Shown piece by piece: positions 4,330-23,954 of a stretch of 27,094 nucleotides of DNA. The notes below the pieces were generated by a model. That model was not told the DNA's origin and did not search any database. It was given only the letters and a program-made list of their open reading frames with translations. The number at the start of each line of letters is the position of its first letter. Within the stretch, counting starts at the first letter, position 1. The position numbers and the translations under genes were made by a program. The DNA is taken from positions 1 to 27,094 of IMG/VR virus record IMGVR_UViG_3300030110_004752. One strand, 5' to 3'. Source of the stretch: a virus.

Positions 4330-4872
4330 ATGGGATTAAAAGCAGATTTATTAGATGCAATTTTATTGGCCTCATCAGATGCGGGTATATCAGAGCCACC
4401 TGATTTATCAGATGGAACTTTCGCAGAAAGACTAGCTCATTATCAGACAGAAGCTATTGTTAATTTTTTAACTCAATGTGAATTTAGAGTTACAAAATTA
4501 AATGCTCCTGTTGTTGTTGAAAAAATGAAAACACCCGATCAGCCTGTAAACATTGAATTAGACACGATGTTAGGTGAATATGGACCTATCTTGAAAACAC
4601 TAAAACAAATTGGAAGTCCACTTGGTTTAGGAGAGTTAATAGATTCATTAGAAGGTGAAATAGAAAAAGCTGTAACACCTCTCTTAGAGGGTGGTGCTAA
4701 ATTAGCAGGATTAGATTTGGGTAAAGATGATGGTGGGTTAGAATCAACAGGTTATGTTTTTATTGGAGAAGATCCAGATTCAGAGGATGAATTTAATGTT
4801 GAAGATGAGGATGGCCAAAAAGAATTTACAAGAGTTGAATTATTTAGAGATGATATTGAGGACTTATTATAA
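4330..4872 (+). CDS. Acidic hypothetical protein upstream of gp25
   Basis: A 180-residue protein, start ATG 4330 two bases after the preceding stop. The N-terminal half is helical (residues 1-50, with TFAERLAHYQTEAIVNFLTQ) and runs into a beta-like segment (FRVTKLNAPVVVEKM). The middle has two Gly/Leu-rich helices (PILKTLKQIGSPLGLGELID, then EKAVTPLLEGGAKLAGLDLG). The C-terminal 45 residues are very acidic (EDPDSEDEFNVEDEDGQ). The stop overlaps the gp25 start by one base (TAATG). I do not recognise the family. Its place between the hub candidate and gp25 makes a baseplate role likely; T4 gp53 occupies a comparable slot in T4, but no LysM-like motif was recognised here. Confidence 0.65.
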   Translation: MGLKADLLDAILLASSDAGISEPPDLSDGTFAERLAHYQTEAIVNFLTQCEFRVTKLNAPVVVEKMKTPDQPVNIELDTMLGEYGPILKTLKQIGSPLGLGELIDSLEGEIEKAVTPLLEGGAKLAGLDLGKDDGGLESTGYVFIGEDPDSEDEFNVEDEDGQKEFTRVELFRDDIEDLL

Positions 4873-5339
4873 TGGCTATAAGAGATAAATCAAGAAAACC
4901 ATTTACTCAAGACAATAATACTAATGTTAAGATTGGTATTGATTTACCTATTAGAAGAGGTGATGATAAAGATGGATTTTTTGCAACTACTTCAACAACA
5001 ATTGAGGCTGTAAAAAATAACATAAGAAACTTATTACAAACCAATGAAGGTGAAAGATTTTTTCAACCTGATTTGGGTATGAATTTAAGAAAACTTTTAT
5101 TTGAACATATTACGAATGAAAATTTACTTGGTGTTCAAGATGCTATATTAGATAAAATAGAATTATGGTTACCTTTTGTAGAGGTGAGAGATATAAGAGT
5201 TTTAAGTAGAAGTAATAAAACAGATATTGGAGTAAATGAAATTAGAGTAAAAATATTATTTAACATCATACGAGACCCAAACACTTTAGATTCTATAACT
5301 TTAGATTTTAGTAGTGATATATCAGAGGGAGATAGATAA
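4872..5339 (+). CDS. 25: gp25-like baseplate wedge protein
   Basis: A 155-residue protein of the GPW/gp25 family, a core wedge component of T4-like baseplates, P2 (gpW) and contractile injection systems. The hallmark segment is clear at residues 42-77: VKNNIRNLLQTNEGERFFQP, then D-L-G-M-N-L-R-K-L-L-F-E. The N-terminal IGIDLPIRRGDDKDGFFATT matches the usual strand that leads into the domain. It is slightly longer than T4 gp25 (132 residues). The gene overlaps its neighbours by one base on both sides (TAATG at 4870-4874 and 5337-5341), consistent with coupled translation with gp6, its structural partner. Confidence 0.88.
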   Translation: MAIRDKSRKPFTQDNNTNVKIGIDLPIRRGDDKDGFFATTSTTIEAVKNNIRNLLQTNEGERFFQPDLGMNLRKLLFEHITNENLLGVQDAILDKIELWLPFVEVRDIRVLSRSNKTDIGVNEIRVKILFNIIRDPNTLDSITLDFSSDISEGDR

Positions 5340-7576
5340 TGCCAACATATGGTAAAGACAATTTTAAAGAATCAAATGTAAATTATTTAAATAAAGATTT
5401 TAGAGCATTGAAATCATCATTGATGAATTATGCTAAATCTTATTTTCCAAATACTTATCGTGATTTTAATGAAACATCACCTGGTATGATGTTATTGGAG
5501 ATGAATGCATATGTTGGTGATGTGTTATCATTTTATGTAGATAAACAATATCAAGAAATGTTATTACCATTAGCTGAAGAAAGAAGAAACATAATCACAA
5601 TGGCTAAAATGTTTGGATACAAAGTAAAACCAATTGTACCCTCATATGTTGACTTAACATTTACATCTGAAGTAAACGCTTCGAGTGGAGATGTTTCTAA
5701 AGTAGATTATTCAAATGCCGGTACATTTGATGCTGGTATTGAAATATCTTCTAACACAGATTCGGATATTATTTTTACGACATTAGAACCAATTGATTTT
5801 AGAATATCAGGCTCAAATGATACTGAAACAATAGGTACAACAGCTGATAGTGGTTTAGCTTCAACTTATACATTGTCAAGAAATGTAAAAGCTGTAAGTG
5901 CAACTCAGAAAACACTAACATTTCAAGTTGGAATACCAGAAAAATTTAAAACCATCACCATACCAGATACAAATGTAGTTGACATTATTTCTTGTGTCGA
6001 TTCAAACGGAAACAATTGGTATGAGGTAGATTTTTTAGCACAAGATAAAGTTGTAATTCAAACTCATTATACTGATGATATAAATAGAGACTCAGCTTAT
6101 TCATCTGAAACTGGTGGTTTAACATCAACTTCAGCTGTTCCTTTTTCTTTAAGTTATATCGCAACAACAAAAAGATTTACTCGTGAAACAAATTTAGATA
6201 ATACAACTTCACTTGTATTTGGTAATGGAGTATTGAAAGATGGACAACTTGTTGATGATGGATTTATTGATATGGAACAAGTTGGAATTGTAATACCTGG
6301 ACAAACTAATGATTTAAATTCATCAATAAATCCCTTATTGGGAGATGAATATTCAACACTCGGTGAAACTCCAAATAATATAACTTTAACAATTACTTAT
6401 CGTGTTGGGGGAGGAATTAATTCAAATGTTCCAAGTGGTGATATATCCACTACACCAGATACACTTGCTCAAAGTGGAAACACATCCGCAACTTTAACAA
6501 GTGTAACAAACAATAATCCAGCTCGTGGTGGTAAGGATGAAGAAGATACAATTGAAATTAAAGAAAAAGCTAAAGCATTTTTCTCAACACAAAACAGATG
6601 TGTAACAAAAGAAGATTATGAAGCTAGGGTTTTGAATGTTCCAAGTAAGTTTGGAAATATTGCAAAAGCTTATGTTACAAGGGGACAATCTTCAAATATT
6701 CTTGAAGCTCAAATAGATTTAGCTAGTCAACAACTTAGTAATTTACGAAATATACTTGAAACTAAAATTACAGATATAATTAATACAGTATCTACAGATA
6801 CTGATGTACAAACTACAATAAAATTAACTGACTTTTATAACAATGATTTATCACAAATGTCTGGAATTACTTTTAATATGGATGAGCTCTCGGATACAGA
6901 TACACTATCAACTATAAACATTTATTTGTTAGGATATGATAATAGAAAAAAATTAGTTGGTAATCCACATACGAATACAACTTTAACAAATGATAATTTA
7001 CCAAATACTTTAATGACAAATATAAAAAAATATTTAGAAAACTTTAAATTGATGACAGATGTTATTACACTTCGTGATGGATACATTGTAAACTTTGGTG
7101 TTATATTTGATGTAATAGCTGAAAAATATGCTGATAAACAACAAGTCAAATTAAGATGTATTCAAAAAATTAAAGATTATTTTAGAGTTGAAAAAATGCA
7201 ATTTAATCAACCAATTTACAAAAGTAATTTAGAATATGAATTAATGGGTGTAGAGGGTGTTCGTTCCATTGGACATATAACAATTACTCAAAATGTTGAT
7301 TATTTTTATGATGATGGTGAAACATTAAACTCACCAACTTACACTTATTCATACGATAACTCAGTTCAATTGGTAGATATCGATGGTGATGGTGTACTTG
7401 ATGGTAGTTTTGTTAATCAATCTGATGGTGAAGGAAGTATTGGTTATGGGTATAAATATAATTTCCAAAATGCACTTTCAGATGATGGTACAATTATCTT
7501 ACCACCAAATACTGCAACACCAACGGTTTTCGAATTAAAGAATCCAAACCAAAACATACAAGGGAGAGTTAGATAA
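5339..7576 (+). CDS. 6: gp6-like baseplate wedge protein (baseplate J family)
   Basis: A 745-residue protein, somewhat longer than T4 gp6 (660). The N-terminus has the conserved wedge-dimer helix region (D42-FNETSPGMMLLEMNAYVGD, then a VLSFYVDKQYQEMLLPLAEE stretch). The centre shows the typical baseplate J block (GGKDEEDTIEIKEKAKAFFS from about residue 397, CVTKEDYEARVLNVP from 421). The C-terminal domain (QPIYKSNLEYELMGVEGVRS) fits the segment that precedes the ring-forming tail of gp6-type proteins. Gp6 dimers form the inner ring around the hub and control sheath contraction. An unusual feature is an insertion near the C-terminus with a perfect D680-I-D-G-D-G-V-L-D688 calcium-type loop. One-base overlap with the upstream and downstream genes. 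Confidence 0.88.
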   Translation: MPTYGKDNFKESNVNYLNKDFRALKSSLMNYAKSYFPNTYRDFNETSPGMMLLEMNAYVGDVLSFYVDKQYQEMLLPLAEERRNIITMAKMFGYKVKPIVPSYVDLTFTSEVNASSGDVSKVDYSNAGTFDAGIEISSNTDSDIIFTTLEPIDFRISGSNDTETIGTTADSGLASTYTLSRNVKAVSATQKTLTFQVGIPEKFKTITIPDTNVVDIISCVDSNGNNWYEVDFLAQDKVVIQTHYTDDINRDSAYSSETGGLTSTSAVPFSLSYIATTKRFTRETNLDNTTSLVFGNGVLKDGQLVDDGFIDMEQVGIVIPGQTNDLNSSINPLLGDEYSTLGETPNNITLTITYRVGGGINSNVPSGDISTTPDTLAQSGNTSATLTSVTNNNPARGGKDEEDTIEIKEKAKAFFSTQNRCVTKEDYEARVLNVPSKFGNIAKAYVTRGQSSNILEAQIDLASQQLSNLRNILETKITDIINTVSTDTDVQTTIKLTDFYNNDLSQMSGITFNMDELSDTDTLSTINIYLLGYDNRKKLVGNPHTNTTLTNDNLPNTLMTNIKKYLENFKLMTDVITLRDGYIVNFGVIFDVIAEKYADKQQVKLRCIQKIKDYFRVEKMQFNQPIYKSNLEYELMGVEGVRSIGHITITQNVDYFYDDGETLNSPTYTYSYDNSVQLVDIDGDGVLDGSFVNQSDGEGSIGYGYKYNFQNALSDDGTIILPPNTATPTVFELKNPNQNIQGRVR

Positions 7577-8694
7577 TGCATCATTTTATTTTTCCAACAC
7601 AAGACACTTGGATTTCAAGTGGTTCATCAACAGTAGATGGTGAGTCTTTCAAAGACCAAAACTTTGGAAGAGACCAAATACTTGAAGTCAAAAAAGAATT
7701 TTACAATAGTTCATTTAATTATCCCACAAGAGCATTGGTAAACTTTAGTGGAACAGAATTTACTGAAATGTCAAAATCAATTCAAGATGGTTCAATAAGT
7801 TCAAACGCAAAATTCTATTTAAGACTTTATGAAGCTGAAGGTAATGCTGAATTAAATGATACATCTTACAGATTAGCTATTCAACCAATATCACAATCTT
7901 GGAAAGAGGGTAGTGGTAAGTTTGGTGATAATCCTAAAAATACAGATGGGTGTAGTTGGGAGAATCGTACAAACCCAGTTGGTGGAGCTGCGACAACATG
8001 GGATACACCTGGTGTTTCAGTATTAAGTGTAAGTGCTTCAGGACAAACTTTTGAAAATGAATCACCTGATGTTAATGTGGAAGTAACCAATATGGTGAAT
8101 ATGTGGTTACAAGGACAATCTACAAAAGGTAATCAAGGTATGTTGATTAGATTTAATTCAACACAAGAAACTGATTCAACTCATTTCGGTCATTTAAAAT
8201 TCTTTTCAAGAAACACACATACAATTTTTTCACCACGACTTGAAGTTCGTTGGGACGACTCGTCATTTTCTACTGGCTCATTAAATGAATTAACAATGAG
8301 TGGATTAACTGATAACTTTTTATATATGAAAGGATTAAGAGAAGAATACAAAGTAGGTGAAAGAGTTAAGTTTAGGGTAGGTGCAAGGAAACGATATATT
8401 CAAAAAACTTTTTCTAATTCAGTTCAAACTGTAACTGGTTCTTATATAACTCAGGGTAGTGGTTCATATGCAATTAAAGATGTTGCAACTGATGAGTTCA
8501 TTGTTCCATTTGAAGACTTTCAAGGAACAAGTTATACGAAACTTAGTTGTGATAGTGATTCAAATTATTTTATTCAATACTTAGATGGATTTTATCCTGA
8601 TAGAGTTTATAAAATTTTATTAAAATTAAAATATGATGATGGACAAGAACAAATATTTGATAATGATTTTGAATTTATAGTTAAAAGGAAATAG
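7576..8694 (+). CDS. DNRLRE-type beta-sandwich structural protein
   Basis: A 372-residue protein whose first 220 residues follow the DNRLRE / disaggregatase-like pattern. They show DTWISS at residues 10-15, then NFGRDQILEVKK, a TRALVNF strand, F-Y-L-R-L-Y, YRLAIQPISQSWKEGSG, a W-x-T/D-x-P segment, V-N-V-E-V-T-N-M-V-N-M-W-L-Q-G and GMLIRF. Such domains are usually extracellular beta-sandwiches that bind carbohydrate. The C-terminal 120 residues (MKGLREEYKVGERVKFRVGA, then YTKLSCDSDSNYFIQYLDGF and FPDRVYKILLKLKYDDGQEQ-like strands) look like a separate beta domain, perhaps for docking on the baseplate. It lies directly after gp6, where T4 has gp7/gp8. Likely a baseplate-attached adsorption or fibre-anchoring protein. 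Confidence 0.6.
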   Translation: MHHFIFPTQDTWISSGSSTVDGESFKDQNFGRDQILEVKKEFYNSSFNYPTRALVNFSGTEFTEMSKSIQDGSISSNAKFYLRLYEAEGNAELNDTSYRLAIQPISQSWKEGSGKFGDNPKNTDGCSWENRTNPVGGAATTWDTPGVSVLSVSASGQTFENESPDVNVEVTNMVNMWLQGQSTKGNQGMLIRFNSTQETDSTHFGHLKFFSRNTHTIFSPRLEVRWDDSSFSTGSLNELTMSGLTDNFLYMKGLREEYKVGERVKFRVGARKRYIQKTFSNSVQTVTGSYITQGSGSYAIKDVATDEFIVPFEDFQGTSYTKLSCDSDSNYFIQYLDGFYPDRVYKILLKLKYDDGQEQIFDNDFEFIVKRK

Positions 8695-8696
8695 TT

Positions 8697-10355
8697 ATGG
8701 CATATAGTCAAGGTGACAATCAAGAATTTAATGTAGAAGCTACACTTCAAACAGGTGATTTAGAGGGATTGTTAGATGCAATAGCTAACGCTTTGATTCA
8801 AAGTCCTTTAATCAACCCATCTGATGTTGAAAATAATCAAAAATTTATTCGTAATGGTCAAATACAAATTGGACAAGGTGAGGGGTTTCTAGCACTTTAT
8901 CAAAAAGATGTTGAGGCTAATGTAGAGGATGACTTACAATCAGTAGCCGACTCTATTAGTGGACTTTTCCAAATAAATATTCAAGAAGGTGTTGATAGTA
9001 CTGTTAGTGTAAATGTTAGTGGTGGTGGTTTACCAGCTGGTGGACAGGATATTACTAATTTAGTTTTTGGTGAAAATAATCCATTAAACGTAAGTCAATT
9101 TATTCCATTACAACTATCATCATCATTAGTAGATATTGAAAAGGCTGAGGAATTTCTCGATACAAACATTTTTGAATTATTACCAAGTGGTGATGCTAGA
9201 CAAGCTAGAATTGTAAGATTTTTTCAAGAATTAAATGCATTACTTCCACCAACACCACCTCAATTTGATTTAGATGGTAATGGTAAGGTTGATAGGGGAA
9301 TGGATAACAGTTGGACTGGTTCACTTCAATATAGTAAAGACAATAGTATTTCATATGCTCAAGATAACACGGATGGAAATATTGATGAAGAAGATGCATT
9401 TATTCATAGATTAAAATCAACATCTAATGATACAAATTCATCTCGAACAATTGAAGATATTTATAATAGAGTTCTACCTTACCTAACTGATAGATTAGAG
9501 GACTCTGGTATAGATGAAGACGGAAGACCTGTTTATGAAAATCAATCAAGTGGATATTTGAAATTTAGAAATTTAAATCAAGGTATTATAATTCGTAATA
9601 CAAATCAAGATTTTATAGAAGGATTAAATCCTAATAATTTAAATTATTTAAATACAGATGGAACTGGTGGTTTTACTATAACAATGTGGGTAAGATTTTT
9701 AGATAAAGTATCAGAGGGTACGTTGTTTAATTTTGGCAATCCAACAAGAGATGAAAATCCATTTGGTTTTAAATTAGAAACATTTGTATTGAATAAAAAT
9801 GATAATACACTATATCCTCCAGATTATGACCCAAATGGTTCGTTTACAACTTGGGGAAGTACTGTTGAGAATACTACTGATTTAAAAAATCAAGGTATTT
9901 TTAGTAATTCAAACACAGCGAGATTTGTAAGACTGCAAGTTAGAGATGGTGATGAGGGATTTCGTAGAGATGTTAGAGATTCTCATGTTGGTAATAATAG
10001 TATAAGAAAAATTTCTTGGAGTTATCCAGACTTTCGATATAGAGATGGTATAGAAAATTCAATGAGTTTAAGATTAATAAATTCAACTTTCATTCCAGAA
10101 AATTTTAATGAATGGTATTTCATATGTGCATCATATAATCCAAATGTTATTGAACCAAGAAGATATGGTGATGGGACTAATGATATTGAACCTGATATCT
10201 ATAATGATTATAAATCAAATCAAAACTTTTGGTTAAATCATGTCGACCCCCTAAATAATGGTAGTTTTACAAACTTTTCTAACTATGGAAACAAATGTAA
10301 AGTAGAAATTATTTCCAAATCACAATTACTACGAGCTCGTGGTTTTAAGGTGTAG
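8697..10355 (+). CDS. Structural protein with dockerin-like loops and a LamG domain
   Basis: A 552-residue protein. Residues 1-185 are a helical and Gly-rich N-terminal part, probably the virion anchor. A proline linker (LLPPTPPQ) leads to a pair of calcium-type loops: D191-L-D-G-N-G-K-V-D199 and Q222-D-N-T-D-G-N-I-D230-E-E-D233. Their spacing resembles a dockerin or EF-hand pair. A concanavalin/LamG-like domain follows at about residues 285-500: SGYLKFRNLNQGIIIRN, FTITMWVRFLDK with W331, and NEWYFICASYNP with W473. LamG domains usually bind glycans or other surface ligands. The C-terminal CKVEIISKSQLLRARGFK is basic. Probably a baseplate-attached receptor-binding or fibre protein. Starts three bases after the previous stop with AAGGAAA as ribosome site. 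Confidence 0.65.
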   Translation: MAYSQGDNQEFNVEATLQTGDLEGLLDAIANALIQSPLINPSDVENNQKFIRNGQIQIGQGEGFLALYQKDVEANVEDDLQSVADSISGLFQINIQEGVDSTVSVNVSGGGLPAGGQDITNLVFGENNPLNVSQFIPLQLSSSLVDIEKAEEFLDTNIFELLPSGDARQARIVRFFQELNALLPPTPPQFDLDGNGKVDRGMDNSWTGSLQYSKDNSISYAQDNTDGNIDEEDAFIHRLKSTSNDTNSSRTIEDIYNRVLPYLTDRLEDSGIDEDGRPVYENQSSGYLKFRNLNQGIIIRNTNQDFIEGLNPNNLNYLNTDGTGGFTITMWVRFLDKVSEGTLFNFGNPTRDENPFGFKLETFVLNKNDNTLYPPDYDPNGSFTTWGSTVENTTDLKNQGIFSNSNTARFVRLQVRDGDEGFRRDVRDSHVGNNSIRKISWSYPDFRYRDGIENSMSLRLINSTFIPENFNEWYFICASYNPNVIEPRRYGDGTNDIEPDIYNDYKSNQNFWLNHVDPLNNGSFTNFSNYGNKCKVEIISKSQLLRARGFKV

Positions 10356-10359
10356 TTAA

Positions 10360-13300
10360 ATGAGTTTTACTATGGAAGAAATATCAAATGATTTTGGTGT
10401 TACTGGTGTTGATATAGAACAAACATTTTTATTACCATTCGACCCATTTAGGGGGTTGAATATAAACACTTCTATTTTTCAAAATACAAATCAAGGACTT
10501 CAAGATTCAAACAAAGATGGTAGAATTGAATTAGGTATGTTTTCATTTGATGATAATAATATAGCTTCTGATAATTTCCCATCTGTTCTATCACCACCAT
10601 TTATAGGAATATCAAAAACAAATTTAATAAAAAATGGAGATTGTAAATCTGTACAAAAAGCTTTTGTTAGAATAGATGAAGTTCCAATTGTTATTCAACC
10701 TGATGGTGGATGGAAATTTTTATCTTTTTATGAACAGACAGATGGACGTTTTAATAATCCTGATTCTCAAGATTTTCAAGGATATGGTGGTAAATATAAT
10801 TATGTTCCCTTATCATTAGAATTAGATAATGGTGAAAGTGGTTTTAATTATTGGGGTAGAATTGAAACTGCAATTGAAGATGGTGACGCTAACGAAAGTA
10901 GAATAGCTCAGTATTTTGCTTCTAATTTAGGTAGATATAATACAGGCTATGACTTTGGTCAATATCGTATTATACAGTCAATTGGTGATTTAAGTGACAT
11001 TAGAGAACAAACAAGTTATTATGGTAATCCTGGACTTGAAAAAAATTCAAATACAGGAGTAAAACCAATACCACATATAGCGATGTGGATAACAACGCCT
11101 GAAGCTTATTCCAATAATAGGTGTTTATGTTTTATGAATTATGAAGGTTGGAGTCCAGCTAAAGTATGTGATTATGTATACACGGATGGTGGTAAATATA
11201 TTTTCAATTGGTTATTAAAACAAAATTTACATGTTAATGGTGAACCTGACGATGGGTTGACTTATAATACGAACAATGTTCATCAACATCATCAAGAAAG
11301 AGTATTAAATCAAGTACAACAAATTTATAATAAATTTAACGATGAACCAATTAATCCATATAGTTCATTAAAGATAAGATTTAAAATGAAAACAACTAGT
11401 GTCTTACCAGGCTCTGCTAATAGTTGTGCTAATACTGAGGAGCGACTAAAATTTATAGATAATCCATTAGATGATAGTTTAGGATATGCACCTCAAGTTG
11501 AGGTTGGTATTTTAGAGGCTCAATGGAATGAAGTTCCAAAGGCAGGTAAAAATTCTGTTGATAAATATAGATTGGAAGATGAAGACCATACTTTCAGGTC
11601 TTCTGGTGGTTTTAATTCAAATAGATATTTTAAAGTTGATGAATTATCTAATCAAGCATCTTCAAGATTTGGTGGAATGGGTAGATTTAAAAATTCAATT
11701 ATGAATGAATGGGAGACATTCGAACTTAATTTTAATTTAACAGGTAAACATATGAATCGTGGTTTAATATATGGAGTTCCATATGGTGGTACTTTTGATG
11801 ATGCGGCTAATAATGGTCCAGTTGAAATACAATTAAATACAAATTCTGATAAAGATGACCAAACTGGTGACCAACCTGGTGAAATATTTTTTCATGTTCC
11901 AGGTTATGATAGAAACAACCCAAATATAGATGAATTTTTCATAATACATCCTGATGGAACTCAAAGGAGAGTAAAACACGCTAAACTTAATTATGATAAT
12001 GAAGTTGATATACTTACCGTTTTAACGGGTTTAGGTGATACTGGTGGAGACGCTGATGACCAACGAACTGGACTACAAGATAATGGTAGATTCCTTGAAG
12101 CATATTTAATGTACGTTGGTACAATTTCAGAAGAAGCAGAAATGTATATGAGGGCTCATGCGGATTATGGTGATAATCCTGATGAAGGGGCTGATAAATC
12201 AGCTGATGAAAACAATAGTGGACCAAATGGAACTGCTCCAATGGATTTAGTTGTCGCGTATTGGAATGGGGAACGGTGGAGTTATGATAACAATGATGGT
12301 TACTCCTCAGGTAGACAATTTAGTCCTGATGAAACTTGTTTCATACTTGGTAGATTATATGCTAATCCTGTTAGTCAGGGTGGAGATGATTCTACCAATC
12401 AAGGTATTAATCAATTTGATAAATACATTAGTAATGAAGTTGACTATCCGACTGGTGGTATTGGTAATTTACATTTGTTTTTACAGACAGGTAATAATTT
12501 TCAAGGTAGAGTATTGATTGACGATATTGAATGTTTTGAATCATATGAGTTTACACCTGATGTTGATGTTAGAAAAAAAATATCTGTTGGTAATTATGGA
12601 ATCGGAGACTTAACAAAATATTATGATAAAGAACTACAACCTGAAGAATACAAAGATACAACTGCTCCGTTAGAAGCACAATTTTATTTTTACCCACAAT
12701 ATCCAGCTGATGAAGTATTTGTAGAAAGAACACCAATTTATCAAGATTTTAAAATGGGTAGATTTTATATTTATGATGTGGATTGGGGTGATGGTTCATC
12801 AAAAGAATTTACATCAACACCTGAACAGATTGGTGATAACATTGCATTATATCACACATATAAAACTAATGGTGTATTTGAAGTTACCGGAACAATGATT
12901 AGGGTAAAGGCTAATGAGAATGATGAAATAACAGGTGTTATGTACAGCAAAAAATTTAAATTAAATATAAACGTAAATGAAGGTATGGACGAAGATTTTA
13001 AATATTTTGGTTCAGATGGTTTTTCATTCATACCATATAAAAACACAACACCAATTATTGGTGGAATTTCACAACAAAGTTCTTACTATAAAACCATAAA
13101 AAGACAAATTGGTTTTCTTGATACTGAAAAAATAAGTATAGAATTTAAAAACAAAAGTGATAAATTAAAAACTGAATTAGCTCTTTTAAAAATAGAAAAT
13201 CAAAATTTAAGTGATTTAGAGGTATTACCAAGTTATATGATTGAAAGAACTGGTTCAAGTGGTGATATTATATATAATGGTATTTCACCAATCAAAGAAG

Positions 13301-14052
13301 AATTAGGAAAAGGAATTGGTGATTGTGATATAACAACTGTAAAATATTACAATAAACCAAAATCAATTTGGGAAATTATTGGTTTTAATGATAGAAATAG
13401 TAATGTAGATTTGGTAGCTAAAGAAGGTGAATTTTTAAACAGAAGAACTGGAGAATTAGTTCCAGCTGGAACTTTATATCACATTCATCCTGATGGTGGT
13501 CCAATGGAAGGTGGAGTTCATAATCCTGATATAGAAGGTGGAACTGCTGGTCATGATTTTTTTGATAACACTGCGGCTCTTCCATTAAGTACTAGATATT
13601 GGAAAAACATTATTAATAAAAATACTTCAGTCTTTGATAGAGAGGGAATAAACTTAAATGCTAATATAGAAGAGGGTACATTAGTTATAGACACTTATTC
13701 GGAACAAGATTGGTTAGATAATTCATATTATCCTGTACTTCCAAAACTTGCTCAAGATGGTAAATTTATTGGTGAAATAGGGTCTGACGATTTAAGTATT
13801 TATCCAAATAACAAAATACCATTTCCAATGCAAGGTGGTATAACAGATGAAATGGAATCTAATGAAACTTTATTAATAAATACAAGTAATGAAAAAGTAG
13901 ATGTTGATGTATTAAGTGATAATAGTGGTAACAAAAACTATTCATTTTTTATTCAAGACTTCAGTTCTAAATTTGATAGTAAAACATTAAGAGTAGAGAA
14001 AATAAAACAAAGAAGTACATTTAAAACATCCAAACAAAATGGAGCATTTTAG
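10360..14052 (+). CDS. Large structural protein with PKD-type domain (paralogue of the next gene)
   Basis: A 1230-residue protein. Near its N-terminus is a calcium-type loop D49-S-N-K-D-G-R-I-E57, then a segment like carbohydrate-binding-module starts (NLIKNGDCKSV). A long beta-rich region follows (residues 90-780) that I cannot assign. At about residues 785-880 a PKD-like domain is visible: VDWGDGSS at 807-814 and H832-T-Y-K-T-N-G-V-F-E-V. Then come I899-I-G-G, a linker with EKISIEFKN, and VKYYNKPKSIWEIIGF at 994-1009. It ends in a basic tail with N-G-A-F. The same order of elements occurs in the next gene, implying duplication. PKD domains typically serve as extracellular spacer or binding modules. 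Likely a tail fibre or baseplate-decorating protein. The last codons GGAGCATTTTAG also supply the ribosome site of the next gene. Confidence 0.6.
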   Translation: MSFTMEEISNDFGVTGVDIEQTFLLPFDPFRGLNINTSIFQNTNQGLQDSNKDGRIELGMFSFDDNNIASDNFPSVLSPPFIGISKTNLIKNGDCKSVQKAFVRIDEVPIVIQPDGGWKFLSFYEQTDGRFNNPDSQDFQGYGGKYNYVPLSLELDNGESGFNYWGRIETAIEDGDANESRIAQYFASNLGRYNTGYDFGQYRIIQSIGDLSDIREQTSYYGNPGLEKNSNTGVKPIPHIAMWITTPEAYSNNRCLCFMNYEGWSPAKVCDYVYTDGGKYIFNWLLKQNLHVNGEPDDGLTYNTNNVHQHHQERVLNQVQQIYNKFNDEPINPYSSLKIRFKMKTTSVLPGSANSCANTEERLKFIDNPLDDSLGYAPQVEVGILEAQWNEVPKAGKNSVDKYRLEDEDHTFRSSGGFNSNRYFKVDELSNQASSRFGGMGRFKNSIMNEWETFELNFNLTGKHMNRGLIYGVPYGGTFDDAANNGPVEIQLNTNSDKDDQTGDQPGEIFFHVPGYDRNNPNIDEFFIIHPDGTQRRVKHAKLNYDNEVDILTVLTGLGDTGGDADDQRTGLQDNGRFLEAYLMYVGTISEEAEMYMRAHADYGDNPDEGADKSADENNSGPNGTAPMDLVVAYWNGERWSYDNNDGYSSGRQFSPDETCFILGRLYANPVSQGGDDSTNQGINQFDKYISNEVDYPTGGIGNLHLFLQTGNNFQGRVLIDDIECFESYEFTPDVDVRKKISVGNYGIGDLTKYYDKELQPEEYKDTTAPLEAQFYFYPQYPADEVFVERTPIYQDFKMGRFYIYDVDWGDGSSKEFTSTPEQIGDNIALYHTYKTNGVFEVTGTMIRVKANENDEITGVMYSKKFKLNINVNEGMDEDFKYFGSDGFSFIPYKNTTPIIGGISQQSSYYKTIKRQIGFLDTEKISIEFKNKSDKLKTELALLKIENQNLSDLEVLPSYMIERTGSSGDIIYNGISPIKEELGKGIGDCDITTVKYYNKPKSIWEIIGFNDRNSNVDLVAKEGEFLNRRTGELVPAGTLYHIHPDGGPMEGGVHNPDIEGGTAGHDFFDNTAALPLSTRYWKNIINKNTSVFDREGINLNANIEEGTLVIDTYSEQDWLDNSYYPVLPKLAQDGKFIGEIGSDDLSIYPNNKIPFPMQGGITDEMESNETLLINTSNEKVDVDVLSDNSGNKNYSFFIQDFSSKFDSKTLRVEKIKQRSTFKTSKQNGAF

Positions 14053-16316
14053 TGGCTCAAATAAAAAAAATATTATTTGATAAACCAAACCAAAGTGATA
14101 TAAGTCAATATAATTTTGATGAAAATACAGACAATTTTAATTATAACAATTCTACAAGTTTACCTGAAAATAATGATAAGTTTCAAAACAAAGATTTATT
14201 TACTAATTGTGTAGGTAACATAATAAACGAAGGTATTATTGAAAAAAATTTAGCATTTGAAGGTAATTCTTTTATACAAATTGATAATTTATTTATTAAA
14301 AATACAGGTGTATCAGGTACCACAATAAATAACAAAGTTAATATATGGATATTTTCAGAAAAAGCGTATGGTGGTGACCCAACTCAAGATGGGTATAGTA
14401 CAGTAAAAGATAATATGAAAGACGAGTGGAAATTCTATTATGAAAAATTTGATAGTCAAGATGAAAATTCAGAGATAGGTAACGTAACTGCTGTAGAAGG
14501 TATTCCTATAGTTAGTAATTTTGGAGTTGTATCACCATCTCCTGCACTAGGAGATTTTCCTGGAATAAAATGGGACATAGATGATGTAACAGATGATAAT
14601 GGTCCTTTTACTCTTTCATCTATTAGTGAACCTGATTTATTAACGACTATATTTAATCAAGGGGAATATAATCCTATATATATTGTTATTAAAACGCAGG
14701 GTGATAAAGACCAATGGTGGCCTATAAATTCAGATGAAAGAAAAAGAAAATATTCAATTTTTAAAATTAACAATGAAGATTTATTTCAAAAAAGTGAAAA
14801 CGATTATCAAGGTTCAACTTTTCAAACAACTTTTACTTCACCAACTGCAACAAAAACTGGTGAAGGTGGAAGTGGTGCTACAAAATCTCCCTGGTCAGTA
14901 TCTTCACTTAAATTAACCATAAACACATCGGCTGGTGGTAAAAATAGTTTTTCAGATTCTTCAGAATATCAAAATATTATACCTTCAGTTTTACCAAAAC
15001 TTACTGTTAATGAAAATATTTTTAATAGTTTTGATTGGTTACTATTTTTAAATCCGACTCTTCAACTTGATAATACCCAAGATCCTGATTATCCAAATAC
15101 AATTCTCAGTAAGGGTTTTTATAGACATCCTGATTTTATACCAATAACAACATTTGGATTTAGTCAAAACAATCAACTTGGTAATACTTATGTGGATTTA
15201 CAAAGTTATTATAATGATTTAAATTCTATTGCAAAATCATCAAGTCCATTAAATGTTACTTTTAATATTGATTTTAAAGGAATAGATGGAGATGATTTAA
15301 AACATTACTATTCTTATGATAGTTATTCAGAACTTATTGATGAAGAGGACGATAGTGATTTTCCAATCGGTGTCGTAGGTGACCAATTATTCTACTATTT
15401 TGTAATTGATTGGGATGATGTAGAGGATAAATTTAAAACACTTGATGATTGGTTGGATTCAAGACCCAATAATGAATTTGATTATTTAGAAAAACAAAAT
15501 CAAAATTTATATAAAGTAAAAAGAATAAATTATACTCAAGGTACAAATAATGGTTTATTATCAAATGTCTATACCACTCCTGGAATCAAAAATGTAAAAT
15601 TTATAATGATTAGTATATTTGATGGGAATGGACAAAACAATTGGAGTCCTGATTTTGAAGTGGGGAGATGGAAACTATGTACATCAAGAATTTATTTAGA
15701 TATACCATCAAATCAATATCCTGATTTTTCTGTTGTTGGTGGGAGTGATTACACAACACTTCCTTGGCCATACACAACACTAATAATTGGTGGTGTTGAT
15801 AAAAATTCAAAATATAAAATAAGTGTTCAAGATACATTAAGTGGGGGTAAAATTGGTAACTTAGATATAATCGATGAAAAACTTTTAATCAATGATATTG
15901 AAAATGATGAAATGGGAAAAAGTGTAGAATCAATGGATTTAGAACAGATAAGATATTTTAACACAAGTTACGGTATGTATGATTTACTTGGTATTGATGC
16001 TGTCATTAATAGTGAATTAATACAATACAATGGTTTTTACTATGATGGTGAAGTTAATAAATTTTCAGAGGAAAGTTCAGTCGGGCAGATATTTATAAGT
16101 GATAATATGGATTTAAATTTAAAACAAAGTTGTAAATTAGAATTAAACGTGGGGGAAGTAACTGCTAAATCAATAGTAGATTCAAGTGGTAATTCAAATA
16201 AAGGATTATTGATGGGTGATTATAAAGTTAAAAAAATTAGAAAAGGTGAACCTATGAGAAGAGATTCGTTTATAAAAGTTCCTAAAAAAACAAGCAATAG
16301 AAAAGGAGCATTATAA
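14052..16316 (+). CDS. Structural protein, GTG start, paralogue of the preceding PKD protein
   Basis: A 754-residue protein that starts at GTG 14052, overlapping the preceding TAG by one base, with GGAG at 14041-14044 seven bases upstream. The N-terminal half (about residues 1-440) is Asn/Asp-rich and unassigned. From about residue 440 it repeats the order seen in the upstream protein: a degenerate PKD-like core (FVIDWDDVEDK with D453-W454, then YTTPGIKNVKFIM), PYTTLIIGG (I578-I-G-G) and IRYFNTSYGMYDLLGI (633-648). It closes with a strongly basic tail (KKIRKGEPMRRDSFIKVPKK) ending N-R-K-G-A-L. The PKD hallmark GDG is lost (W-D-D). The stop codon overlaps the next ATG by one base. Probably virion-associated, with the basic C-terminal tail as a docking peptide (inference). 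Confidence 0.6.
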   Translation: MAQIKKILFDKPNQSDISQYNFDENTDNFNYNNSTSLPENNDKFQNKDLFTNCVGNIINEGIIEKNLAFEGNSFIQIDNLFIKNTGVSGTTINNKVNIWIFSEKAYGGDPTQDGYSTVKDNMKDEWKFYYEKFDSQDENSEIGNVTAVEGIPIVSNFGVVSPSPALGDFPGIKWDIDDVTDDNGPFTLSSISEPDLLTTIFNQGEYNPIYIVIKTQGDKDQWWPINSDERKRKYSIFKINNEDLFQKSENDYQGSTFQTTFTSPTATKTGEGGSGATKSPWSVSSLKLTINTSAGGKNSFSDSSEYQNIIPSVLPKLTVNENIFNSFDWLLFLNPTLQLDNTQDPDYPNTILSKGFYRHPDFIPITTFGFSQNNQLGNTYVDLQSYYNDLNSIAKSSSPLNVTFNIDFKGIDGDDLKHYYSYDSYSELIDEEDDSDFPIGVVGDQLFYYFVIDWDDVEDKFKTLDDWLDSRPNNEFDYLEKQNQNLYKVKRINYTQGTNNGLLSNVYTTPGIKNVKFIMISIFDGNGQNNWSPDFEVGRWKLCTSRIYLDIPSNQYPDFSVVGGSDYTTLPWPYTTLIIGGVDKNSKYKISVQDTLSGGKIGNLDIIDEKLLINDIENDEMGKSVESMDLEQIRYFNTSYGMYDLLGIDAVINSELIQYNGFYYDGEVNKFSEESSVGQIFISDNMDLNLKQSCKLELNVGEVTAKSIVDSSGNSNKGLLMGDYKVKKIRKGEPMRRDSFIKVPKKTSNRKGAL

Positions 16317-19300
16317 TGCCAGATTTTGAATTTGAATTTAATCAACAAGATAGAGATTTAATTTTGAGTCAAAATTCTGCGACATTTGGTGGAATGAATT
16401 ATATTCGTTTAACCATTTATCCAACAGAAGCAATTAACAATATTGTTGATTTACCTGACAGTACACAAGGTATTGATGGTAAAGCTATATTCTTTTCTTC
16501 ATTAAATTTAACACCATTTACTATTAATATATCACCTTTCAAAGAAAACAATGAAGTTAATACCAAAATAATAGGTGGTTCAGAGAATGATTTTATAATA
16601 CATAAAAATTTAGGTGATAATAGTATTTACATTAAACCAAATGAAATATTTAATACATTTGAATTACCTCAAGGTAATTATAAAATACAAATTGATTTTT
16701 TAAATCAAGTTTTACCTACTTTTGGTGGAGAACAATACTATAAATTTATTATAAAACAAATATCAACTTCGAGAAAAGAAGTTAGATTAAAAATAATTGA
16801 TGAAACTATTCTTAATAATTCGGATATTATTACAAGTTTAACTAATGAATTTAATAATAATATAGGAGAAAGTAATCCTGAATTTCTTGAAGATACAGAT
16901 GATTCATCTGATACTTTTGGACAATTTGTAATACCAAATTCAAATTATAAATATCAATTTAAACATGTGTTAAATATTGGAACTGGTGACCATATTCCAA
17001 TAATGAATTATGCATTTGATAGAGTAACGGATGGAAAAAATAATCAATCTTTAATTTTAAAACTTTATGAGGCGTTACCAAGTAATATTCTTAATTTAAA
17101 GTTAATATCAATTGAACGTGAGGTATTAACTACACAACTTCAAGATATATTTTATTTCTCTGATGTACCTGATATATTTTTTGGTGATGGTTTAATTCCA
17201 GATACACAAGAGAATTGGGTTACTTCTAATAACAGTGATATTGGATTTCAAAATTTAAATCAATTAGCTAATTCAGCTTCTATTGGTGATATAGAAATTG
17301 ATTTTTTAATATCAGGTAGTGAATATGGTTATCCAAATTTAAATACAGATTTTAATGAATTTGAAAATCATACATTTTTTGGTTCTGCTAAAAAGAAATT
17401 ACAAAATTTTAAAACAAAAGTTGAAACTATTCAAGGACATTATACAGAAATATCAAAATCACTTGTGGTTTCAAGTTCAATTCAAGGTGATTCAAGTTTT
17501 ATAATAAGAAAGAGGAAAGATTTATTTAATAATATTAATAAAGAATTTAAAACATTTACACCTTATGAAAGATTTTTATATTTTGATGGTCAAACGGATT
17601 CAACAGCCTCAGCTCCAAGTTTAAAAAATTATGCTGATACAATTCCTGTTAAAGACGATAAGAAAAATATTTTTGTCGGTGAATTAAATCAACACAATGG
17701 ATTTAATGTTGTTTACAAACATTCTTCTCAAAACGCTGGAAGTGATAAGTATATAGGTTTATTTAGTGATAAATACAAAGTAGAAAACAAACCATTTTTT
17801 AATTACAGTGGTTCAATTTATTTATCATTTTTAATGCAAGGTGATAGTGGTAGTTCATTAATTTGGGAAAATAGAAATAAAAATTCAAACCCGCCAATGC
17901 CCGTAGATGCTTTACATCAAAACAATATTTTAAATCCTGATAGGACAGGAAGTGCTTATCAAAGATATGTGTTTGAAGCTTCTCAATCATATTTTGTTCC
18001 AAATACTGATAATAATGATATGGCAGATTTGTCAAAAGATAATGGTGACTTTAATACCAACTCTACAAAAATTATAATTTTAAGTGGTAGTGTTAAAACA
18101 GGTTCAAGTAAAATAAAAGATTCAACAAATTTATATCCAACGACTGTTGTTTCTCAATCTGGAGTTCCATTTTTTGGCTCAGTAATGCCTAAGGGTGAAT
18201 TGTTTAGAATTTATTACATAAACAATTTATCATCAAGTTTACAAGGTTATTGGAATATTGATGATGTGGAATCGGGTAGTGCTTTAACTCTTGCTAATGT
18301 TGTAAATGATGCAGGGCCTACATTTGGTGATGCTGAAAATATATTAGGGGTTACTGCTTCAGCTGGTGTTGAAGTTCATGGAAGACAATATGGTTCATCT
18401 TACTTTATGATAAGTGAAAGTACTGCCCAAACTGGTGTTCATGTCGATACATCTAATTATAATTTCAATAAAGATGATAACTTCTCTTTATCCATATGGG
18501 CAAAAAGATTTCATCCAAACACTGGAAGTGCAGATGCGGCATCTGGTACTGTTCAAGGTATATTTGTCAGAGGAGACAATGAGGATTCTTATGGAATAGA
18601 TTATGCTATGGGAGGTAATGAATTAAGAGCTAGAGTAAGACCAGGTATTTCATCTACTGCTAGAGATGTTAGAAAAACAATGTCGGATGATTTATTGGAT
18701 TGGCATCATATTGTAATGACTTATGAAAGTGCTTCTGCTACTGGTATAAAACTTTATGTTGATGGTGTGTTGGAAGGTAGTGAAACAAGTATAACAGATG
18801 GGACTGGCGCTACAATGGGTGATTTCTCATCATCTGCTGTTACTAGTGTTAATGAACAACTAACCATTGGTGGTAATGATAAAACAGCAGGAAGTGGTGC
18901 AGTTTATAATGGATTTCTACAATACCCAAGAATTTATAATAGAACCATAACTGCTGAAGAAGTTAATTTATTATATCAAAATCCACCAGGAATTACTGAA
19001 ACAAAAATCACAGATGTAAAAGTAACATTAAAAGACCCAACTGATGTGTTACCATTTGATAATGTATTTAAAACAACATCAACTGAATGGACTAATTGGT
19101 ACAATAATGCGTTAACAACAGCTGAAACATTTGATACCGATAATATACATTCATTTGAAAATAATCTACCTCTTTATATTCAAGAAAGTTCTCAATTTAA
19201 TGATATGAAAACTTTCTTAAATCTACAAGGTGAACAATATGATTTAATTAGAAACCATATTGATTCAATGGGAACACTACATAAAAGAGGATATAAGAAA

Positions 19301-22036
19301 ACCAATTCACCACCTAACAACACATTACCAATGTTATTAAACAATATGGGTTGGGAAGCTATTAATCCATTTAGTGGAAGTTTAACCGATACATTAGGAA
19401 GTTATTTAAGTGGTGTTACTTCAATTGATGATATTAAAAACAACACTTGGAGAAAAACTCTAAACAATTTATTATACATTTATAAATCAAAAGGAACAAA
19501 AAATTCAGTTAGGGCATTATTGAATACATATGGTTATCCACCTGATGTATTACAATTTCAAGAATTTGGTGGAGCTACATCTAATGGGGATATGAGTGCT
19601 TTATTGGATGATTCAGTTCCATCTGAAGAAAATACCGATTTAAATTTAAAACTAAAAAGTGGAAGTTTTTCATTTACTACAAATAAACAAAAACTTTATA
19701 ATTATAATTTTAATGGAAATATAGATAGAACTTTAAATCTTGATTGGTGGATGGATGATGCAAATATTAATACAATTGAATTTGTGTATAAGCATGTTAA
19801 TACAACAAATACACAAACAATTTTAGAATCAAGTGGTAGTGGAACACAAACTTTATGGGATTTAAGATTAGTTCCAAGTTCAGATGGTGCTAGTTCATCT
19901 TTTGAATTTAGATTAAATAATTCTCAAAATGGTGGGACAGCAATTGGTGAAAGAGGTTTCTCAATGTCATTAGCATATAACAAAATGAAAGATGGACAAT
20001 TGTGGAATGTGATGTTACAGAGAATGACTGCCTCAAGTGATGGACCAGGTACAGCTGAATATAGATTACATTCAGCTTTTCAAAATGAAGAATCAATAGC
20101 ACCATATAGTTATGTAACAATGTCAATTAGTGGTGGAATGGCAGGTGATTCTTCAACTCTTGGTGGTAAAGGATTTTTTGCTAACCAAAATTGGCAATCA
20201 AGTGGTAGTAGGGGAACTGATATTATAAGTTCATCTGGTTTATATGTTGGTGAAACACATAGTGGTTCATTAGCTGAAATAAAAGCTTGGGCTACTCAAT
20301 TAAGTATTTCAAAATTTAGACAACATACATTAAATAAATTTTCAACTGTTGGTAATACAATTAATTCTCATAAAGACGAGTTAATTTATCATTTTAAATT
20401 AAATGAAAATTACACAACATCATCAGTTTCAGCATCAAATCAAATGGTAAAAATTGTAGATTCAGCACCAACTACAACTTATTCTGATTATTCAATTCCA
20501 ACAAGTGGTAGTTTTTTTACAAGTTCAATAATTTATGGTTTTGATATAATAGATGTTGTTAAATTAACATTACAGGACAATGGTAGTAATCCAAATGATA
20601 ATACTATTTTAATAAATCCAAATCAATCTATTATTGGTAATTTAGATTCTAACGACTCAGCTATAGATTCGTTAACATCTCCATTAGGTAAAAAACCACA
20701 ATTTAATACATCACCTAAATTAGAATTATATCGTTCACCACAAACATATGTAGATAATTTTATTTTAGATAAATTAGGTGGTTTTAATTTAGAAACATTA
20801 TATGGTAGTCCAACAAACTATTATTCACAATCATATCAAGAATTTGATACATTTAGAGAGAATTTTTTTGATGCCCATCCAATAAATGTTGATGTAAATA
20901 AATTTATTAGAGCTCATGAAAATATGTTTAATGATTCAATTACAGAGGGAATGAAAAAAATAATTCCAGCTCGTTCAACATTTAGTGATAAAAATGCTAA
21001 TGTTGGTGTGGAAATAAAACCAACTGTATTAGAAAAACAAAAATATGAAAATGAAGAACATAGTATTGAAGCTAATCCAAATACTGGTTTAGGTACTATT
21101 GGAATTGTTTCAACTAAAGAACATTTGAAAAGTGGTAGTTCTGGAGAATTTGGTAGTAGTATAATTCGTAATACTGTTGGTGTTAGTTTATCTGAAACAA
21201 TTTATGATTCAATAAAAGAAGGTACGGTTCAAAGTGCTCCATCTTTAATTGAGTCATCTTTTGTTCAACCATTGAGTGCGTCAATAAAAGTATCTGACTC
21301 TGGTAGTGTTGGAAATCCTTATTTAGGAGTTGCTTATACTTCTGTAAGTAGTTCGGTTGTAAATCCATTCACGGGCTCAATATCACCATTACCATCAACA
21401 AATAATTCATCAGTTCCAACTTCAAAAAATGGAACTATTGATTATGCTTTAATAGCAAATAAATCTTTTGAAGATGTTCATAAGAATTGGGGAACAAGTT
21501 CTGCTGATGTTCAACACATTAATTTTGCAGGTGGTACAGGCTCATATGGAACATTTAATACTTATGATATAGAAACAAGATTTGTATTTCATACTGTTGG
21601 TGATAATGAATACTATTCAGCTTCAACAGGATATTCAGCTGATTTTACAAACATTGATAGATTTTACAATAGATTAATTATTGATGATAACTTTAATTCT
21701 AATGTTAGTTATCAATCCTTAATAGGTGGAAGTGGTAGTGATTCAAATCAGACTGGTAAAATAATGGGTAAAACAAGATATTTTATTACAAGCTCGGATG
21801 GCTTAACAATTATATTACCACCAAACCATGTAACTAAATTCAGTCAACCATTTAACGATAGAATGAATCAAGGAACACAAAATACCAATCCAGGAACTTT
21901 AAATGTTCGAGAGGAAGATTATTCAACAGCTTCATTTTATAGTGTTAAAGTAACTGGTGGTGAAAATCAAATTTATGTAAAAGGTTCAAATAATCCATCT
22001 AAGGGTGGTGATGGTAAAATATTATATGGTCCTTAA
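16316..22036 (+). CDS. Giant gp7/P2 gpI-like baseplate protein with two LamG-type domains
   Basis: A 1906-residue protein, the largest gene here. Residues 1-630 are an N-terminal beta-rich region (PDFEFEFNQQDRDLIL, NYIRLTIYPTEAINNIVDLP). A complete LamG-type domain sits at about 640-890 (FSLSIWAKRF with W728, LLDWHHIVMTYE with W796, YPRIYNRTITAEEVNLLYQN). At about 950-1085 comes a P2 gpI / T4 gp7-type tail domain: LPLYIQESSQFNDMKTFLNL, I-D-S-M-G, LPMLLNNMGWEAINPF, Y1056-K-S-K-G-T-K-N-S-V-R-A-L-L-N-T-Y-G. A second LamG-like beta-sandwich follows at about 1140-1340 (INTIEFVYKHV, LAEIKAWATQLS). The remainder is Ser/Asn-rich. Gp7-type proteins complete the wedge with gp25 and gp6 and carry peripheral attachments. 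Ribosome site AAAAGGAG at 16301-16308. The stop is followed by a 78-base gap with a second late-promoter candidate. Confidence 0.65.
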   Translation: MPDFEFEFNQQDRDLILSQNSATFGGMNYIRLTIYPTEAINNIVDLPDSTQGIDGKAIFFSSLNLTPFTINISPFKENNEVNTKIIGGSENDFIIHKNLGDNSIYIKPNEIFNTFELPQGNYKIQIDFLNQVLPTFGGEQYYKFIIKQISTSRKEVRLKIIDETILNNSDIITSLTNEFNNNIGESNPEFLEDTDDSSDTFGQFVIPNSNYKYQFKHVLNIGTGDHIPIMNYAFDRVTDGKNNQSLILKLYEALPSNILNLKLISIEREVLTTQLQDIFYFSDVPDIFFGDGLIPDTQENWVTSNNSDIGFQNLNQLANSASIGDIEIDFLISGSEYGYPNLNTDFNEFENHTFFGSAKKKLQNFKTKVETIQGHYTEISKSLVVSSSIQGDSSFIIRKRKDLFNNINKEFKTFTPYERFLYFDGQTDSTASAPSLKNYADTIPVKDDKKNIFVGELNQHNGFNVVYKHSSQNAGSDKYIGLFSDKYKVENKPFFNYSGSIYLSFLMQGDSGSSLIWENRNKNSNPPMPVDALHQNNILNPDRTGSAYQRYVFEASQSYFVPNTDNNDMADLSKDNGDFNTNSTKIIILSGSVKTGSSKIKDSTNLYPTTVVSQSGVPFFGSVMPKGELFRIYYINNLSSSLQGYWNIDDVESGSALTLANVVNDAGPTFGDAENILGVTASAGVEVHGRQYGSSYFMISESTAQTGVHVDTSNYNFNKDDNFSLSIWAKRFHPNTGSADAASGTVQGIFVRGDNEDSYGIDYAMGGNELRARVRPGISSTARDVRKTMSDDLLDWHHIVMTYESASATGIKLYVDGVLEGSETSITDGTGATMGDFSSSAVTSVNEQLTIGGNDKTAGSGAVYNGFLQYPRIYNRTITAEEVNLLYQNPPGITETKITDVKVTLKDPTDVLPFDNVFKTTSTEWTNWYNNALTTAETFDTDNIHSFENNLPLYIQESSQFNDMKTFLNLQGEQYDLIRNHIDSMGTLHKRGYKKTNSPPNNTLPMLLNNMGWEAINPFSGSLTDTLGSYLSGVTSIDDIKNNTWRKTLNNLLYIYKSKGTKNSVRALLNTYGYPPDVLQFQEFGGATSNGDMSALLDDSVPSEENTDLNLKLKSGSFSFTTNKQKLYNYNFNGNIDRTLNLDWWMDDANINTIEFVYKHVNTTNTQTILESSGSGTQTLWDLRLVPSSDGASSSFEFRLNNSQNGGTAIGERGFSMSLAYNKMKDGQLWNVMLQRMTASSDGPGTAEYRLHSAFQNEESIAPYSYVTMSISGGMAGDSSTLGGKGFFANQNWQSSGSRGTDIISSSGLYVGETHSGSLAEIKAWATQLSISKFRQHTLNKFSTVGNTINSHKDELIYHFKLNENYTTSSVSASNQMVKIVDSAPTTTYSDYSIPTSGSFFTSSIIYGFDIIDVVKLTLQDNGSNPNDNTILINPNQSIIGNLDSNDSAIDSLTSPLGKKPQFNTSPKLELYRSPQTYVDNFILDKLGGFNLETLYGSPTNYYSQSYQEFDTFRENFFDAHPINVDVNKFIRAHENMFNDSITEGMKKIIPARSTFSDKNANVGVEIKPTVLEKQKYENEEHSIEANPNTGLGTIGIVSTKEHLKSGSSGEFGSSIIRNTVGVSLSETIYDSIKEGTVQSAPSLIESSFVQPLSASIKVSDSGSVGNPYLGVAYTSVSSSVVNPFTGSISPLPSTNNSSVPTSKNGTIDYALIANKSFEDVHKNWGTSSADVQHINFAGGTGSYGTFNTYDIETRFVFHTVGDNEYYSASTGYSADFTNIDRFYNRLIIDDNFNSNVSYQSLIGGSGSDSNQTGKIMGKTRYFITSSDGLTIILPPNHVTKFSQPFNDRMNQGTQNTNPGTLNVREEDYSTASFYSVKVTGGENQIYVKGSNNPSKGGDGKILYGP
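18230..18995 (+). other. LamG-coding insertion of higher GC content inside the gp7-like gene
   Basis: This stretch encodes residues of about 640-895, the complete first LamG domain. Hand counts of 60-base blocks inside it give 38-43% GC (18301-18360, 18601-18660, 18781-18840), against 22-23% in flanking blocks (17401-17460, 19201-19260). Amino-acid use also changes: the domain is rich in Ala and Gly, whereas the flanks are rich in Asn, Lys and Ile. The flanking segments (MPKGELFRIYYIN before, TDVKVTLKDPTDVLPF after) read as though they would join without it. The boundaries are approximate. Confidence 0.55.
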
Positions 22037-22841: not shown

Positions 22842-23954
22842 ATGGCTATAGCTGGAGGAAACATATCATTAGATTCAACGGAGGGGATGGATAGAATCAC
22901 CCAAACAGAAAAGGTAACTTCACCTTATTTTTCAAATGGTCAAGCGACATTAGCAGCTGCTAATATTGTTTCATCATCACAAACAGGACAAGCTACTAAT
23001 GAAACATATTTTTTTGGAATAGCACATTCGTCAACACCAACAGTTCAAGAGTTTGATGTAACTTTTGGTAGTACAAATGGATATGGTTCAAAAGTTGAAA
23101 CAAACACAAAACCAGAAACAGAAGCTATTTATAAACAATATGCTAGTTTACTTTTGGCTCCTACTGAAGTAACTGGTGGATTCTTTATTTCATCTCCTGC
23201 TAGTAATTCTACTGTTGCTAGTGGAAAGGATACAGAAATATTTGTCCTTGCTGCTAGACGTTCTAATATGAAAGATAGAATTAATAAAGGAACTTGGACT
23301 GTTGCATTAAGTGGTTCAAATTCTGCTGCTGATGCTGCTGCGCCAATACTTGAATTAACAGATGATAGTGTAAATAGTAATCCAACGGCTACACCTGTTG
23401 GTGATAGATATAATATTGTTAGTGGTGCGGCTGGTACTGTTCATAGTGAATCAACTGCTAGAAACTATGGTTTCTTTTATCCTGATATGGGTATTTTAGT
23501 ATTTAGTGCAGCTGAGTTATCAGCTTCAATACCTGGTAAAGGTGCTAATGCTATGGACACTGTAAATTTCGGTAATACAAATCATACAGGTTTTGGTTTT
23601 GCAACTGCATCTAATGATACTGTAAATAGAAAAACAGCTTTAAGATTTATAAATTGCTTATCATCTGGTTCTGGAGCTCTGTTAACATTTAGAGATGAAG
23701 AAGACCAAGTAAGTTCTCAATATTTTTGTAGAGCTAGAAGTGGTCAAATGAATTTTTCAAACAATCCAACATTTGTATCAGGCTCATTAAATGAATTAAG
23801 ACAAAAAACTATGAAAGGTAATCCAACTTCATTTATATCATCGGTTCAATTATATAATGATGCTGGTGAAATGGTTGCTATTGGTAATCTTTCAACACCA
23901 CTAAAGAAAAACTTTAGTTCAGAAGCTACAATAAAAGTTAAACTAACTTATTAA
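22842..23954 (+). CDS. T4-like structural protein with shared LYN-type C-terminal module
   Basis: A 370-residue protein, ATG at 22842 with AGGAGA at 22829-22834. Recognisable segments are FSNGQATLAAANIVSSSQTG, TNETYFFGIAHS (about residues 50-65), NYGFFYPDMGILVFSA (208-223), SSQYFCRARSGQMNFSNNPT (about 285-305) and, at the C-terminus, FISSVQLYNDAGEMVAIGNL followed by STPLKKNF and a final K-V-K-L-T-Y. I recall this combination from conserved structural proteins of marine T4-like phages. The Ala/Ser/Gly-rich composition and higher GC (about 38% in 23281-23340) fit an abundant virion protein. The NYGFFY and LYN segments recur in the next gene, indicating a related fold. Molecular role not established from sequence. 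Confidence 0.65.
   Translation: MAIAGGNISLDSTEGMDRITQTEKVTSPYFSNGQATLAAANIVSSSQTGQATNETYFFGIAHSSTPTVQEFDVTFGSTNGYGSKVETNTKPETEAIYKQYASLLLAPTEVTGGFFISSPASNSTVASGKDTEIFVLAARRSNMKDRINKGTWTVALSGSNSAADAAAPILELTDDSVNSNPTATPVGDRYNIVSGAAGTVHSESTARNYGFFYPDMGILVFSAAELSASIPGKGANAMDTVNFGNTNHTGFGFATASNDTVNRKTALRFINCLSSGSGALLTFRDEEDQVSSQYFCRARSGQMNFSNNPTFVSGSLNELRQKTMKGNPTSFISSVQLYNDAGEMVAIGNLSTPLKKNFSSEATIKVKLTY

Follow-up and report, generated by a model that had tools for sequence, protein, structure and literature searches.

The stretch of viral DNA analyzed here (27,094 nucleotides, referred to as the window) contains a single open frame for a protein of 1906 residues, the carrier, in which one LamG domain occupies a socket between conserved segments. 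The features of the carrier, and of two upstream genes that give its context, are as follows; residue numbers are those of the carrier.

4872–5339, + strand: gp25-like baseplate wedge subunit (context; phrog_261, E 2.4e-19)
5339–7576, + strand: gp6-like baseplate wedge subunit (context; phrog_219, E 7.5e-21)
16316–22036, + strand: large baseplate-cluster protein, the carrier of the cassette, 1906 residues in a single open frame
16709–16738, + strand: second socket, residues 132–141, short in the window
17588–18220, + strand: β-rich domain, residues 425–635, immediately N-terminal of the LamG socket
18188–18229, + strand: left conserved edge, PKGELFRIYYINNL, conserved in DNA and protein in filled alleles of all three types
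18230–18994, + strand: exchangeable LamG cassette of type I, residues 639–893, with exact boundaries taken from homologues
18437–18967, + strand: match to PF13385 (Laminin_G_3), residues 708–884, 61.8 bits
18995–19030, + strand: right conserved edge, TETKITDVKVTL, conserved in DNA and protein in filled alleles of all three types
18995–19660, + strand: most conserved core segment, residues 894–1115, predicted to be helical
19667–20572, + strand: second, fixed ConA-like jelly roll, residues ∼1118–1419, invisible to Pfam

By gene content, the carrier is set in a baseplate cluster of the contractile-tail kind: homologues of gp25 and gp6 begin at 4872 and 5339, and the carrier lies further downstream. 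Judged by gp6, the closest relatives that have a name are Microcystis phage Mel-JY01 and Flavobacterium phage immuto, which at 31%–33% identity are too distant for a host to be transferred from them. The carrier had been called gp7-like in the first-pass annotation; its position downstream of gp25 and gp6 agrees with that name, and comparison by sequence gave no match to T4 gp7. This place in the baseplate cluster is what the carrier has in common with the wedge proteins T4 gp7 and P2 gpI (Tail_P2_I), whereas it shows no significant sequence similarity to them and the gene order is broken by four large ORFs between gp6 and the carrier (two in immuto and two in Mel-JY01). Comparison with T4 gp7 by hhalign gave a probability of 0.2%–1.2%, with a single sequence on the T4 side. 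A match to Tail_P2_I (PF09684) at residues ∼1041–1079 reaches 12.9 bits in the window, below the cut-off of 20.6 bits; weak matches occur in 28 of 29 members, the best with an E value of 0.003, and an unrelated family, SNaCT11, scores as well. Homology of the carrier to gp7 is established neither by profile nor by fold.

Two further observations concern the neighboring tail genes. The ORF that follows gp6 (7576–8694) resembles CBM96 with an E value of 6e-5, just below the curated cut-off, and is another candidate carbohydrate-binding tail protein. EF-hand-like loops (FDLDGNGKVDRG, QDSNKDGRIELG, and DIDGDGVLDG) recur in the products of 8697–10355, 10360–14052, and 5339–7576, and the tail might thus be calcium dependent.

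Within the carrier, the β-rich domain preceding the socket is found in filled and empty alleles of the group and is missing in Mel-JY01 and immuto. The helical core is poorly modeled (pLDDT 30–45). The second ConA-like domain is fixed within the group; its fold resembles pentraxin, CBM40, and neurexin LNS domains, and a counterpart region is present in Mel-JY01 and absent from immuto.

Relatives were collected by searching IMG/VR with the C flank, the N flank, the domain, and a flank profile. Including the window, 38 proteins have both flanks, the other 37 being encoded on other contigs. The socket, bounded by GELFRI.. and ..ITDVKVTL, is empty in 14 of them and filled at one junction by a LamG domain of ∼234–279 residues in the remaining 24. 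Three types of domain are found, type I in 13 alleles (the window among them), type II in 9, and type III in 2; identity between types is ∼30%, and the medians within types are 49%–69%. The reading frame is open across the socket in all alleles. The first-pass impression that the flanks are continuous without the domain is borne out by the empty alleles, in which a linker of just 3–28 residues takes its place; alignment of homologues, which had been proposed as a check, thus finds the domain absent at this very site in 14 of 38 and does not find it in all. Two remote homologues, those of Mel-JY01 and immuto, are also without the LamG domain, the counterpart of residues 425–913 being missing or reduced to tens of residues. 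Conservation of the edges extends to both protein and DNA, with the pattern GELFRI..NxL-SSSL at the left edge and NQLYLxPDG-TETKITDVKVTL at the right; in empty alleles the right edge differs, reading TQSF or TSSF. As judged from these alleles, LamG at the socket is widespread in the phage group, and it is exchange between relatives that is recent. Uncultured phages provide a natural series of this tail protein, with its socket empty or filled by type I, II, or III, in which a candidate module for host recognition can readily be found and tested.

One complete LamG domain had been proposed for positions 18,230 to 18,995, and the replaceable unit, residues 639–893, coincides with it nearly exactly. 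It is the only LamG domain of the 1906-residue ORF that is visible to Pfam. The cassette alone matches PF13385 with an E value of 1.1e-16, and each of the three types scores above the curated 27.6-bit cut-off (window, 61.8; type II, 49.6; type III, 90.0). The model of the domain is a ConA-like jelly roll (pLDDT ∼85), which Foldseek matches in the PDB to LamG-like lectin domains with an E value of 4e-9 at 11%–17% identity; a relative in the PDB was not found by sequence. Foldseek matches to clostridial neurotoxin binding domains and sialidases, at the same identity, reflect the common jelly roll and give no hint of a toxin. In annotated phages, IMG/VR, and prokaryote genomes, close relatives of types I and II were not found outside the socket (best ∼34%, partial), and only type III has numerous distant relatives, at ∼24%–33%. 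No donor outside the phage group was found in these collections.

The LamG domain is probably an exchangeable accessory-adhesin cassette, a module that the baseplate protein may carry or lack in a socket of fixed position between domains. Since the edges are conserved in protein and DNA, they would provide the homology by which recombination can swap what lies between them in frame and leave the baseplate core undisturbed. Homologous recombination between coinfecting phages would carry out the replacement, the domain, presumably exposed at the surface, would bind a glycan of the host surface and help adsorption, and swapping of the cassette would track changing hosts. Judged from the fold, from how the site behaves, and from evolved Dit proteins as a precedent, the likeliest role is that of an accessory adhesin with a host glycan as its ligand; given the lectin-like fold and this precedent, receptor binding is plausible. 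LamG domains can be structural too. If so, the domain could stiffen or decorate the baseplate, or bind a tail protein, and be replaced neutrally, with no selection for host recognition. Such a role seems rather unlikely, although several properties agree with it: LamG varies freely in presence with no break of the frame and is therefore dispensable, the second ConA-like domain of the carrier is fixed and may be structural, and the LamG domain is conserved, with pN/pS of ∼0.5. A lectin-like domain that is replaced repeatedly at one spot while the core is conserved fits the pattern of an adhesin, however, and the inserts of Dit proteins provide a precedent. The pN/pS values within the domain (0.43–0.63) are mostly somewhat above that of the C flank and well under 1, which gives no sign of strong positive selection on the domain. 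A diversity-generating retroelement behind the variation was discarded, as no PF00078 reverse transcriptase was found in the window's record or in seven related records, with fragments of up to 69 kb.

The exchangeable cassette is further indicated by the decoupling of the domain from its flanks. Identity of the domain is uncorrelated with that of either flank (Spearman 0.005 and −0.08, 190 pairs), whereas the flanks correlate with each other (0.56). Mapped on the flank tree, the socket's four states require at least 13 changes, and empty versus filled needs at least 7, of which 4 are forced by well-supported branches; such counts do not distinguish gain from loss. In the tree of type I domains, L011 groups with L019 and L053 (100/98) and L024 with L026, L030, and L023, against the flank tree, which joins L024 and L011 (100/99), and the domain and flank data sets each reject the grouping of the other. 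Synonymous divergence (pS) of the domain falls well below that of the flanks in six pairs (L016/L040, L025/L099, L033/L101, L033/L047, L024/L026, and the window with L052) and exceeds it in three (L024/L011, L028/L029, and the window with L024, 0.52 versus 0.36). The values are 0.03 and 0.43 for the domain and flanks of L016/L040 and 0.30 and 0.48 for the window and L052, the difference in the latter pair having a 95% interval of 0.07–0.27. Synonymous contrasts are independent of selection on the protein and show that LamG domains have been exchanged between lineages, the window's own included. Between L016 and L040, DNA identity rises at the first residues of the domain and does not drop again before the contig ends, indicating that the shared tract is longer than the domain. 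In L024 and L011, which have nearly identical flanks and different domain subtypes, the lowered identity starts ∼130 residues upstream of the cassette. We infer that the moving unit would often be the cassette with some flank, as ordinary homologous recombination would give.

Descent from one ancestral LamG domain, with the types arising vertically and the domain lost several times, is very improbable as an alternative to the exchangeable cassette. A single clade for types I–III is not rejected (AU test, 0.59), the edges are common to all types, and the counts of changes on the flank tree are blind to the direction of change. Vertical descent, however, cannot yield the contrast in pS between L016 and L040, the different domains of L024 and L011 within near-identical flanks, or trees that reject each other. 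On the pS contrasts, it is refuted as a full account and survives only as an origin story: types I–III may go back to one ancestral domain rather than to separate captures, independent origins being indistinguishable from a single one by the same AU test.

Base composition had been one ground for regarding the domain as a recent arrival, with a claimed GC content of 40% against 22% in the flanks. The measured values are 35.8% for the domain and 27.8% and 27.9% for the 766 bases on each side, a local rise of 8 points. In GC content the domain ranks among the highest 255-codon stretches of the window, with those at 22842 (36.1%) and 11710 (35.7%) comparable. The change in amino acid composition that had been noted is real: the domain has 11.4% Gly, 8.2% Ala, and 2.0% Lys, against 6%–8%, 2.5%–3.7%, and 5%–6% in the rest. 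When codons were drawn at the window's own usage for the identical amino acids, the expected GC was 35.9% ± 0.7% (z = −0.09) and the expected GC3 13.2%, against 13.3% observed (z = 0.07). Synonymous codon choice in the domain is also typical of the window's genes (z = −0.6), and all 20 LamG carriers profiled, of the three types, have an equal rise in GC with flank-like GC3. The raised GC is a property of the LamG sequence, explained by its amino acid content; since this content alone predicts the GC, the composition argument for foreign origin fails. A GC-richer donor whose composition is still visible in a newly arrived domain is thus most improbable: the local rise and the altered amino acid content fit it, whereas GC3 and codon choice are native and contradict it, the 20 carriers share the rise, and the searches of phage records, IMG/VR, and prokaryote genomes gave no close relative outside the socket. 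Of the first-pass proposal of a recently acquired cassette in a conserved structural protein, the cassette stands on the empty alleles, the three types, the conflict of trees, and the decoupling of pS, and recent acquisition by GC falls, composition being ruled out as a mark of foreign origin. In an AT-rich phage, the protein fold by itself can raise GC locally, and such a rise is not to be taken as horizontal transfer. Chimeric assembly of metagenomic contigs, from which all close relatives come and in which assemblers could switch at the conserved edges, can be given almost no credence as the source of the swaps and empty sites, because near-identical alleles occur in separate metagenomes (L035/L034, empty; L003/L016, type II), frames are open across the socket throughout, and the intermediate synonymous divergence of domain alleles is beyond what mis-joining alone would produce.

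The exchangeable LamG cassette does not fill the only insertion site of the carrier. At the second socket, 13 of 36 relatives (L003, L005, L016, L033, L037, L040, L042, L047, L054, L098, L099, L101, and L104) have an insert of ∼80–175 residues with DxNxDGxxNxxD..W motifs like dockerin or EF-hand loops, which L033 contains in two copies; the match to Dockerin_1 (E 0.006) is below the cut-off. The insert occurs in eight of nine type II carriers and five of 27 others (Fisher, 3e-4), a pairing that rests on ∼3 informative independent pairs, all agreeing and too few for significance. Inserts are also seen in the second jelly-roll region, one of 149 residues in L030 and L036 near window residues 1150–1180 (∼1165) and one of 126 residues in L023 near 1260–1300 (∼1280); they have a common style (SSDGTxKTYIFDDDNDG.., SADGTTKTYMALSS..) and no match in Pfam. 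With several insertion sites along its length, the carrier looks like a core with multiple sockets, among which the LamG socket is, in the alleles compared, the largest and most variable. Tentatively, the carrier could be a multi-socket display scaffold in which a calcium-binding insert is coupled to one LamG type 500 residues away and host recognition comes from interacting exchangeable modules.

Among the closest precedents in principle is the evolved distal tail protein, Dit (evoDit), known from lactococcal and other siphophages. This conserved protein of the tail tip occurs both with an internal insert that binds carbohydrate and in a form that lacks it; the inserts promote adsorption, and 16 groups of them have been reported (PMC10688798; review, PMC9863714). 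In both systems the flanks align with an insert-free form, represented here by the 14 empty alleles. The siphophage Dit, however, is a small hexameric ring protein with BppA-like CBMs, whereas the carrier has 1906 residues, belongs to a contractile-tail baseplate cluster, and bears LamG. No match of the carrier to Dit was found in Pfam or PHROGs, and the carrier lies in a gp25/gp6 cluster; the similarity is one of principle and not of membership. LamG domains of the same family (PF13385, ConA-like) occur in structural proteins of cyanophages S-SKS1, S-H9-2, and Syn1 and of Bacillus phage G, in proteins other than the carrier. GP075, a putative baseplate wedge protein of Pseudomonas phage K8, can take part in host binding (PMC9887876); there the change in host binding comes from mutation of the protein, and the abstract describes no domain insertion. 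For the LamG slot described here, no earlier account was found in the open-licence literature. Shuffling of domains in tail and receptor-binding proteins is a general principle of phage mosaicism (Nat Commun 2023, PMC10684548); LamG or ConA domains are not named in the main text of that study, and for the present cassette, exchange has in addition been traced at the synonymous level, together with the slot and its empty form. Phages are known to tinker with host recognition in this style, and the present case would extend it to a new protein.
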